Source of the DNA: Pelomonas sp. Root405
Lineage (GTDB): Bacteria > Pseudomonadota > Gammaproteobacteria > Burkholderiales > Burkholderiaceae_C
NCBI RefSeq assembly: GCF_001425165.1
Contig: NZ_LMDU01000001.1
Span: 899,311-963,310, forward strand
Direction: 5' to 3'
Length of the DNA: 64,000 bases
Shown: positions 2,421-4,360 of the stretch, piece after piece
Numbering within the stretch: position 1 is the stretch's first letter
How the letters are laid out: each line of letters starts with the position of its first letter
Translations under genes and position numbers: made by a program
Notes under the pieces: model-generated
Databases searched by the model: none
Seen by the model: only the letters and a program-made list of their open reading frames with translations
Told to the model about the DNA's origin: nothing

Positions 2421-3770
2421 TCAGCGCTTGTGGGCGGCCATCCAGCCTTCAAGATAGTGAATCGACGTGCCGCCTTCGATGAACTTGGCGTCGGCCATCA
2501 GCTCGCGGTGCAAGGGGATGTTGGTCTGGATGCCTTCCACCACGGTCTCGGACAAGGCAATCCGCATGCGCGCCAACGCCTGCTCGCGCGTGTCGCCGTG
2601 GACGATGATCTTGCCGATCATGCTGTCGTAGTTGGGCGGCACGAAATAGTTCGTGTAGGCATGTGAGTCGACCCGCACCCCCGGTCCGCCGGGCGCGTGC
2701 CACATCGTGATCCGGCCGGGCGAGGGCACGAACTTGACCGGGTCTTCCGCATTGATGCGGCACTCGATGGCATGACCGCGCATCTCGATCTGGCGCTGCG
2801 TGAAGGGCAGCTTCTCGCCGGCGGCGATCTTGATCTGCTGCTGCACGATGTCGATGCCGGTCACCATCTCGGTGACCGGATGCTCGACCTGCACGCGCGT
2901 GTTCATCTCGATGAAATAGAACTCGCCGTTCTCGTACAGGAACTCGAAGGTGCCGGCCCCGCGATAGCCCATCTTCTTGCAGGCGGCGGCGCAGCGGTCA
3001 CCGACGCGCTCGATGCTGCGGCGGGGAATGCCGGGTGCCGGCGCTTCCTCGATGATCTTCTGGTGGCGGCGCTGCATGGAGCAGTCGCGCTCGCCCAGCC
3101 AGACGGCGTTCTTGTAGGTGTCGGCCAGGATCTGGATCTCGACATGGCGAGGGTTCTCGAGGAACTTCTCCATGTAGACCTCGGGATTGCCGAAGGCCGC
3201 ACCCGCTTCCGCGCGGGTCGTCTGCACCGCGTGCACCAGGGCTGCCTCGGTGTGCACGACGCGCATGCCGCGACCGCCGCCGCCGCCAGCCGCCTTGATG
3301 ATGACGGGGTAGCCCACCGAGCGGGCGATCTTGATGATCTCCTTCGGGTCCTCGGGCAGGGCGCCCTCTGAGCCCGGCACGCAGGGCACGCCGGCCCGGA
3401 TCATGGCCTGCTTGGCCGAGACCTTGTCGCCCATCAGGCGGATGGACTCGGGCGTGGGACCGATGAAGGTGAAGCCGCTGCGCTCGACGCGCTCGGCAAA
3501 GTCGGCGTTCTCGCTCAGGAACCCATAGCCGGGGTGGATGGCCTCGGCGTCGGTGACCTCGGCCGTCGCGATGATGGCCGGCATGCTGAGGTAGCTTTGC
3601 GCCGACGGCGCCGGGCCGATGCAGACGGCCTCGTCGGCCAGTCGTACATATTTGGCGTCGCGGTCGGCCTCGGAGTAGACGACGACGGACTTGATGCCGA
3701 GTTCACGGCACGCCCGCTGGATGCGCAGCGCGATCTCGCCTCGATTGGCAATAAGAACTTTTTTGAACAT
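2421..3770 (-). CDS. accC: Acetyl-CoA carboxylase, biotin carboxylase subunit
   Basis: AccC carboxylates the biotin on AccB using ATP and bicarbonate, the first half-reaction of malonyl-CoA synthesis. The 449-residue protein begins [17 protein letters not shown] and carries the ATP-grasp glycine loop ([11 protein letters not shown]) and the catalytic stretch [14 protein letters not shown]. The start is the ATG at 3768-3770, two bases after the stop of a small leader ORF whose own first 11 codons duplicate the accC start. The accC ATG has only a poor ribosome-binding site, whereas the leader ORF has a good one (AAGGA), so accC translation may depend on coupling to the leader. Next upstream is accB; prmA follows. 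Confidence 0.97.
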
Positions 3771-3886
3771 GGTCACTCGGCGCGATCGCCCCCGTTCGCT
3801 GCGCGAACTGCGCGATTTGCCGTGCCTGCGGCACGTCCGCGCTGCGCGCGACCGCCTCGATTGGCGATAAGAACTTTCTTGAACAT
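3737..3886 (-). repeat. 34-bp direct repeat of the accC start flanking an 82-bp palindromic segment
   Basis: Bases 3737-3770 and 3853-3886 match at 32 of 34 positions; both differences are synonymous third-codon changes (AAA/AAG and ATT/ATC). The 82 bases between them contain two perfect hairpins of the same design, each a 6-bp stem with a TGC loop: GTTCGC-TGC-GCGAAC (3794-3808) and CGTGCC-TGC-GGCACG (3821-3835). The arrangement resembles insertion of a small palindromic element with duplication of flanking sequence, or a tandem duplication later interrupted. Confidence 0.8.
3773..3886 (-). CDS. 37-residue leader ORF duplicating the AccC N-terminus
   Basis: Between accB and accC, a 37-codon ORF opens with ATG at 3884-3886, preceded by AAGGA about ten bases upstream. 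Its first residues, [11 protein letters not shown], are identical to those of AccC. It then continues in an unrelated Arg/Ala/Gly-rich sequence (begins [10 protein letters not shown]) and stops with TGA at 3773-3775. Only two bases separate that TGA from the accC ATG. It looks like the original accC start cut off by an inserted palindromic segment, with the accC 5' end repeated on the other side. Whether the peptide is made or matters is unknown; the layout would support reinitiation. Confidence 0.55.
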
Positions 3887-3895
3887 CAGAAGTCC

Positions 3896-4360
3896 TTACT
3901 CAATCACGAACAGCGGTTGTCCGAACTCGACCGCTTGGCCGTTCTCGCACATGACCTTGGTGATCGTGCCGCTCTTGTCGGCCTCGATCTCGTTCATGAT
4001 CTTCATCGCTTCGATGATGCAGATGGCCTCGCCTTCCTTGACCTGCTGGCCGACGTCCGCAAACGGCTTGGCGTTGGGGCTGGATGCGCGGTAGAAGGTG
4101 CCGACCATGGGCGACTTGACGATGTGGCCGGTCTCGACAGGCGCGGTCGGCGCCGCCGCTGCGACGGGGGCGGCCGTGGCGACGGGTGCCGCCGACGTGG
4201 CGACCGGCGCGGGGGCGGGCGCATAGACGGTCTGCGCGACGGCGGCTGCCGGGTCGGCCTTGACGATGCGGACCTTGCCGTCTGCCTCGGTGATTTCCAG
4301 TTCGGAAATGTTGGATTCCGAGACCAGGTCGATCAGGGTTTTGAGCTTGCGCAGGTCCAT
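3896..4360 (-). CDS. accB: Acetyl-CoA carboxylase, biotin carboxyl carrier protein
   Basis: AccB carries the biotin that shuttles CO2 from AccC to the carboxyltransferase. The protein is 154 residues: an N-terminal family segment starting [12 protein letters not shown], an Ala/Pro-rich flexible linker at about residues 40-75, and a C-terminal biotinyl domain with the EAMKIMNEI motif (biotinylated lysine about residue 120). The ATG at 4358-4360 is chosen because it gives the family N-terminus; the open frame continues upstream into aroQ sequence without similarity. Gene order aroQ-accB-accC matches other betaproteobacteria. Confidence 0.96.

Follow-up and report, generated by a model that had tools for sequence, protein, structure and literature searches.

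The window (the whole stretch of DNA analyzed, 64 kb) carries accB and accC on its minus strand, and the start of accC is present there twice, with a hairpin-bearing insert between the two copies. The features of the junction are as follows.

3896..4360, minus strand: accB, biotin carboxyl carrier protein, 154 aa, the upstream operon gene (open reading frame list); the anchor for comparisons
3853..3886, minus strand: S1, the ancestral start copy, lying upstream and keeping the original ribosome-binding site (direct repeat; plain junctions in the genus)
3773..3886, minus strand: leader open reading frame of 37 codons, terminated by a TGA 2 nt upstream of the accC ATG
3771..3852, minus strand: E, the hairpin element of 82 nt between the start copies (covariance model matches)
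3838..3850, minus strand: first hairpin, 5-bp stem, CGCGC-GCA-GCGCG on the mRNA strand (sequence)
3821..3835, minus strand: middle hairpin, CGTGCC-GCA-GGCACG on the mRNA strand (sequence)
3794..3808, minus strand: inner stem of the third hairpin (H3), GTTCGC-GCA-GCGAAC on the mRNA strand (sequence; covarying helix)
3737..3770, minus strand: S2, the downstream 34-nt copy of the start, which is the start of accC (direct repeat)
2421..3770, minus strand: accC, biotin carboxylase, 449 aa counted from the downstream start (open reading frame list)

By the window sequence and the open reading frame list, the accC ATG occupies 3770-3768 on the minus strand; the accC frame as listed begins 6 nt upstream of it, at an in-frame GTG that shares bases with the leader stop (GTGA). 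The 34-bp repeat had been described in the original prediction as 32/34 identical and 116 bp upstream of the true start, and the window sequence agrees on both counts (start-to-start distance 116). A chance repeat is ruled out, since the next-best 34-mers matching the accC start within the 64 kb reach only 19/34 (same strand) and 20/34 (opposite strand). The upstream copy was also said to have the better ribosome-binding site and to open a 37-codon frame ending 2 nt before the accC ATG; the frame is there, and the S1 ATG has AAGGA 7-11 nt upstream, against a weak GAG at the S2 ATG. The two differences between the copies (AAG/AAA and ATC/ATT) are indeed both synonymous, although as the sign of coding selection that they were taken for, two sites are weak evidence, and the real test lies in the pooled data given below. 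Both of the 6-bp hairpins predicted in the insert are present, with loops that read TGC as displayed and GCA on the mRNA strand, whereas the third hairpin, at 3838-3850, had been missed.

The original prediction looked to further copies of the insert in the same genome. BLAST with the insert gave 40 own-genome matches at E ≤ 10, the second best of which (E = 0.0018) sits in a frame resembling an ABC transporter and was rejected as a dispersed copy. There is no close DNA copy, but a diverged structural homolog stands at a pccA-like gene of the same genome (G000:C14:791823-791917), where the leader begins MFDKILIANRGTHAEG and its TGA lies inside ATGTTTGAC. Exact 20-bp matches in other genomes of the genus (L067, L069, and L070 were opened) all fell in one ordinary coding sequence. 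GTDB genomes were then scanned for two MFKK-type starts 97-127 bp apart, which yielded at least 119 stretches with duplicated biotin-carboxylase-type starts. Among the stretches listed, 118 junctions were read and typed by the motif after the start: 75 are pccA-like, 40 are accC, and 3 are without type. The named records among those listed are from Variovorax, Acidovorax, Polaromonas, Thauera, Aquitalea, and Roseateles, all of which we take to belong to the GTDB order Burkholderiales. Tandem arrays of three or four starts occur in 10 of the 118 listed junctions. The repeat was also seen, with inserts of other sequence, in further members of the taxonomic family, among them L054 with three copies in tandem. 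In L128, L210, L054, L121, L218, L224, and L226, two or three near-identical leader units follow one another in tandem, each ending in or just before the next start.

Folded alone, the window insert is moderately more stable than its shuffled versions (z = -1.1, 28 of 200 shuffles as good), and together with S1 it reaches z = -2.7 (1 of 200). Since the single-sequence fold is weak, the structure of E rests instead on covariation between genomes. The inserts from 25 pccA-type junctions align nearly without gaps and share three hairpins; 94.4% of the cells in this alignment are paired, double changes number 45 against 14.7 after shuffling, and pairing drops to 18-51% in controls with slid partners. 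A wider alignment, made from 107 matches in 100 sources (part of the loci) and holding 100 distinct E sequences, has 310 double-change cells against 83.8 after shuffling, a number reached by none of 500 shuffles, and 19 of 21 base pairs contain double changes; these rows were fitted to their own model, and the pair counts lean that way. The loops follow the pattern GNA in 88 of 107 sequences for H3, 71 of 107 for H2, and 61 of 107 for H1. In DNA, loops of the form C(GNA)G have very high stability, as in the GCGAAGC mini-hairpins.

A covariance model, R1, was built from the 25 pccA-type inserts only, and the window insert scores 36.3 bits against it (E = 8e-9 in 133 kb; E = 3.5e-7 genome-wide). 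A second model, R2, scores the window insert at 55.9 bits, the window being among its building sequences; the model match at the window spans 3768-3855. In 12 genomes, the 19 best R1 matches (≥22.6 bits) all lie at biotin-carboxylase starts; 13 weaker matches that were opened had no duplicated start there, and low-scoring matches at L275 are real accC arrays. A search of 399 genomes of the order with R2 gave at least 31 matches, 31 of 31 at biotin-carboxylase starts, from 27 genomes, 19 genera, and 11 families; the large R2 searches score 11 candidates per genome and accC types score low, so these counts are lower bounds. Both models were built from loci found mainly by the biotin-carboxylase start pattern, a choice that in part accounts for how strongly those genes predominate. 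Across 370 genomes of the class (a few of the same order), with 11 candidates per genome scored, R2 matched the own genome alone. Rfam gave no match at E ≤ 1 for window positions 3500-4100 and none at the gathering threshold for 8 loci. E is a member of a real, recurrent family of three-hairpin elements for which we found no earlier description.

Within the genus, R2 gave 12 matches at E ≤ 6.6e-4. Ten of these lie at biotin carboxylases and the other two at an unrelated gene that we take to be of the alpha-E type; three further matches at E of 0.010-0.018 were set aside as chance. By direct search the alpha-E-type gene is present in 19 of 20 genus genomes, and in five of the 19 it carries the same arrangement, with a unit length of 148, R2 scores of 30-38 bits, and, in all five carriers, a leader that stops inside ATGCTGTCTAG or ATGCTGTCTAGG. 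The layout S1-E-S2/gene is found at accC, at pccA-like genes, and at the alpha-E-type gene, and the own genome has all three. What had been proposed as an event at accC is therefore not specific to accC, the same layout recurring at these other genes and in many relatives. The idea that E is decayed accC sequence was dropped for the same reason, E being homologous at unrelated genes.

To compare occupied and empty sites, 20 genomes of the genus were used; accB was found in 18, and 17 accB-accC junctions were readable. The S1-E-S2 arrangement is present in four of the 17 (G000, which is the own genome and has the window on contig C1, G008, G011, and G004), so that the suggested comparison among relatives returns a patchy distribution rather than one common to all. 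Eleven junctions are plain and one (G015) has an unrelated long spacer. In the plain junctions the accC start is at the S1 position, which makes S1 the ancestral copy and E+S2 the addition. As the arrangement is common to four genus members, it is not very recent, in line with one of the two options left in the original prediction. Comparison with empty sites places E and the second start after codon 11-12, and after codon 19 at the alpha-E gene. The proposal that a palindromic element inserted at the start codon and regenerated the start is thus upheld for the element and for the downstream start, and the site shifts from the start codon to a position inside the gene.

The pccA-type genes were compared at 30 loci, a part of the copies in the genus, and five of these loci gave no start; together with the R2 matches, the pccA element is present in G000 and G004 (L286) and 13 loci are plain, while a second pccA-like gene carries an element in G002, G003, G006, G010, G015, and G019 and is plain in six. 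Patchy presence together with unrelated target genes points to exchange or mobility, and we infer that E+S2 comes and goes as one unit, by mobility or by horizontal exchange. A target duplication of fixed length was not seen in these comparisons, S being about 34 bp at biotin carboxylases and about 58 bp at the alpha-E gene.

Several other junctions deserve mention. In G009 (L046), accC is preceded by the tail of an insert only, GAGCCGAGTGACC, and it looks as if S1 and most of E were deleted and S2 was left as the sole start. The leaderless pccA starts of L424 and L430 (G006 and G019) have ATGTTTAAG, a codon choice typical of S2, and are possible scars of a lost element. The alpha-E gene lies in a different upstream context in L453, L459, and L464; in L459 its start is preceded by GGGCGATCAGGAG, which looks like the 3' end of E and is perhaps a relic of it. 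Unrelated accB-accC spacers of about 130-180 nt were seen in L034, L053, L058, L091, L098, L104, and L105, those of L091 and L105 being alike and perhaps holding a different conserved structure.

The spacing between the two starts is 1 mod 3 in 91 of the 118 listed junctions, a spacing that allows the leader stop to fall inside the next start, and in 89 of the 118 the leader overlaps the next start by 8 nt (ATGTTTAA); by type, this overlap is found in 19 of 40 accC and 68 of 75 pccA junctions listed. Counting clusters of similar inserts among the listed junctions instead of single junctions, the spacing is 1 mod 3 in 34 of 49 clusters at 85% insert identity (P = 2.7e-7), in 11 of 15 at 75% (P = 0.0018), and in 3 of 3 at the strictest clustering, 65% (P = 0.037). 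The leader stop lies within -24..+8 nt of the gene ATG in 115 of the 118; in the three exceptions (L129, L133, and L159) the leader reads into or past the gene start. The spacing is 117 (0 mod 3) in L133 and L129, with leader and biotin carboxylase in one frame, and the gene frame of L129 breaks after 67 codons. In L222, a relative of the window accC, the leader stops 21 nt short. The leader frame stays open in 64% of shuffled inserts. Codon 2 is TTT in 97 of 118 genes and in 43 of 118 S1 copies of the listed junctions.

In the predicted fold of the window RNA, almost every base immediately 5' of the accC ATG is paired. The position of the leader stop, the frame, and this fold together suggest translational coupling, probably by reinitiation. 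The claim that accC depends on reinitiation is borne out as to the coupling layout, which is seen directly, while reinitiation itself is a prediction from the sequence.

We next consider selection on S1, first at codons 9-11, which were not fixed by the search pattern. Between S1 and the gene, these codons hold 119 synonymous and 16 nonsynonymous codon differences in the listed junctions. Junctions found through E (n = 35) give 121 synonymous and 20 nonsynonymous differences, the model behind them being itself built mainly from pattern-found loci. In 19 pairs of junctions with inserts 90-98.5% alike, pS is 0.87 and pN 0.024 at S1 codons 9-11, and pS is 0.33 at gene codons 23-60. Thus, in the pooled data the amino acids of S1 are mostly conserved while its synonymous sites drift. 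Comparisons of S1 with S1 are weaker. Over codons 9-11 of 62 pairs, the synonymous to nonsynonymous counts are 107:22 for S1-S1 and 49:1 for S2-S2; clade by clade, S1-S1 gives 12:0, 26:10, and 43:15. For the four accC cases in the genus they are 19:18 for S1-S1 and 20:4 for S2-S2, and in relatives of the window accC the amino-acid identity of S1 is being lost (IASRC, IAHRG), so that constraint on S1 looks relaxed at the window's own accC. S1-S1 comparisons are weaker than S1-S2 elsewhere too: 12 R2-found pairs give 47:34 for S1-S1 and 54:16 for S2-S2 over codons 2-11, and the alpha-E gene gives 44:2 for S1-S2, 61:34 for S1-S1, and 43:29 for S2-S2. The leader tail has no codon-position signal of amino-acid constraint, and amino-acid selection on it was rejected on this ground.

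We consider it probable that these are Burkholderiales hairpin elements that sit a few codons inside genes, are followed by a copied start, are gained and lost as a unit, and leave the target gene expressed by translational coupling. A MIRU-like start-site element is the best reading of E. E+S2 would arrive inside the target gene as a mobile or horizontally exchanged unit. Ribosomes loading at S1 would translate across E, unfolding its hairpins on the way, terminate at S2, and begin again from that start, and accC output would be kept; with the leader untranslated, the accC start would be hidden by the hairpins. The insertion would then be near-neutral, and it may also damp or couple accC expression.

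Alternatively, the arrangement could be a dedicated regulatory leader that controls biotin-carboxylase genes much like an attenuator and is kept by selection for this control, not as an insertion that the cell tolerates. Its presence in two paralogous biotin-carboxylase families and at least 11 families of the order, with structure and frame conserved, would fit such a role. Furthermore, direct repeats flanking hairpins should delete easily, so that long persistence suggests a benefit. A regulatory leader would not, however, be expected to be patchy within one genus (accC 4/17, alpha-E 5/19), to stand at the unrelated alpha-E gene as well, or to have a tail that is free of codon-position constraint, and we think it unlikely.

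The conservation of S1 could also mean that S1 is used as the N-terminus of the real protein, made either by ribosomes bypassing E+S2, as in T4 gene 60, or by precise loss of E+S2 in some cells. This would account for an S1 that keeps its amino acids amid drifting synonymous sites, for the freedom of the remaining leader, and for the observation that S1 mostly tracks its own gene (MFDK etc.). Under bypassing, on the other hand, S2 would need neither its ATG nor its even stronger amino-acid conservation. In T4 gene 60 a stop codon follows the take-off codon, and there is none after a take-off codon here. In L291 and L296, S1 and the gene differ in a residue (MFTK/MFNK), and S1 is decaying in the relatives of the window accC. 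We therefore regard the use of S1 as the N-terminus of the real protein as quite unlikely. The combined version, in which mobile hairpin elements rebuild the target start and S1 is selected as a still-used enzyme N-terminus through bypassing or through precise loss that happens often, so that either of two beginnings could serve the gene, seems to us similarly doubtful. Turnover, with E+S2 lost and regained and S1 intermittently serving as the true start, could produce the same picture as a functional leader peptide or bypassing.

That the gene start was simply duplicated in tandem on the spot, with the downstream stretch decayed into hairpins and no element involved, is very improbable: the S-E arrays do indicate that duplication and loss by recombination occur, but E is homologous between accC, pccA, and alpha-E, genes with unrelated codons downstream of the start, and decay would not yield the same three strongly covarying hairpins at unrelated genes.

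Returning to the start-site element as the preferred reading, the closest counterpart found is MIRU, which is described as short and apparently mobile, inserts at start codons, and carries an open reading frame coupled to the target gene at a spacing of -4 nt, with the frame lying within MIRU and expression hardly disturbed (PMC12548453). The likeness is that the E leader also ends at or overlaps the target start, within -24..+8 nt in the 115 junctions noted above and 2 nt upstream in the window. The spacing differs from the -4 nt given there, being mostly +8 for E and in none of the 118 listed junctions +4; one R2-found case, L316, is at +4. Host order, structure, and target genes also differ from those of MIRU. 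The MIRU frame and its start belong to the element, and the target start is not duplicated, whereas the E leader begins with a copy of the target's own start (118 listed, 35 E-found, and 5 alpha-E junctions); this copy is broken or diverged in a few loci (L293, L312, and L314).

Leader peptides and upstream open reading frames share with E a short frame that ends at the gene start and structure in between. We know of none that copies the N-terminus of the protein that follows, and they differ also in that the E device recurs at unrelated genes. T4 gene 60 and the byp elements of yeast mitochondria are hairpin inserts in coding regions near matching codons; E, in contrast, is followed by a complete second start, so that bypassing is not required. 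REP and BIME sequences are small GC-rich hairpins of similar size, but E is not dispersed, and its confident model matches lie at duplicated gene starts. Consistently, BLAST, R1, R2, and a motif scan found no REP-like set of many intergenic copies per genome. The motif scan covered 1.24 Mb of loci and gave 46 matches in known elements and 6 others, three of which are further biotin-carboxylase leaders. We found no earlier report of the S1-E-S2 arrangement in the literature searched, which does not prove that there is none.

The core of the original prediction is right in outline, and the site, the scope, and the selection pattern are new. On the preferred reading, a small element lives within essential genes across a large order of bacteria, where the host start is kept, the element is read through, and translation would restart at the rebuilt start. 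In the junctions, a coupled leader with covarying structure has been replicated many times by nature, which makes them usable for the study of termination-reinitiation, and they raise the puzzle of a leader that repeats the N-terminus of the protein it precedes. For annotation, gene callers may pick the wrong start at accC and pccA.

A scan of the own genome for any duplicated start covered 2.06 Mb (35%) and gave 33 rows, among which four genes were kept: accC, pccA, alpha-E, and what we take from its N-terminal motif to be a molybdopterin oxidoreductase. The other rows are low-identity or low-complexity matches, two antisense readings of the pccA repeat (L398), a tandem repeat within L361 reading like tRNA genes, and repeats within L367. 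An earlier run (34 rows) also gave rows spanning N. At the fourth gene (L342, minus strand, G000:C1 about 462.8 kb), the molybdopterin-oxidoreductase-like start (MRETKSTCPYCGVGCG) is duplicated 146 bp upstream. R2 gave no match on this duplication, which was left out of the E family. The upstream copy is diverged and has lost its cysteines, a hairpin insert is present, and the leader ends just as it does at the window accC, with its TGA 2 nt ahead of the ATG; the duplication is perhaps a second type of element.
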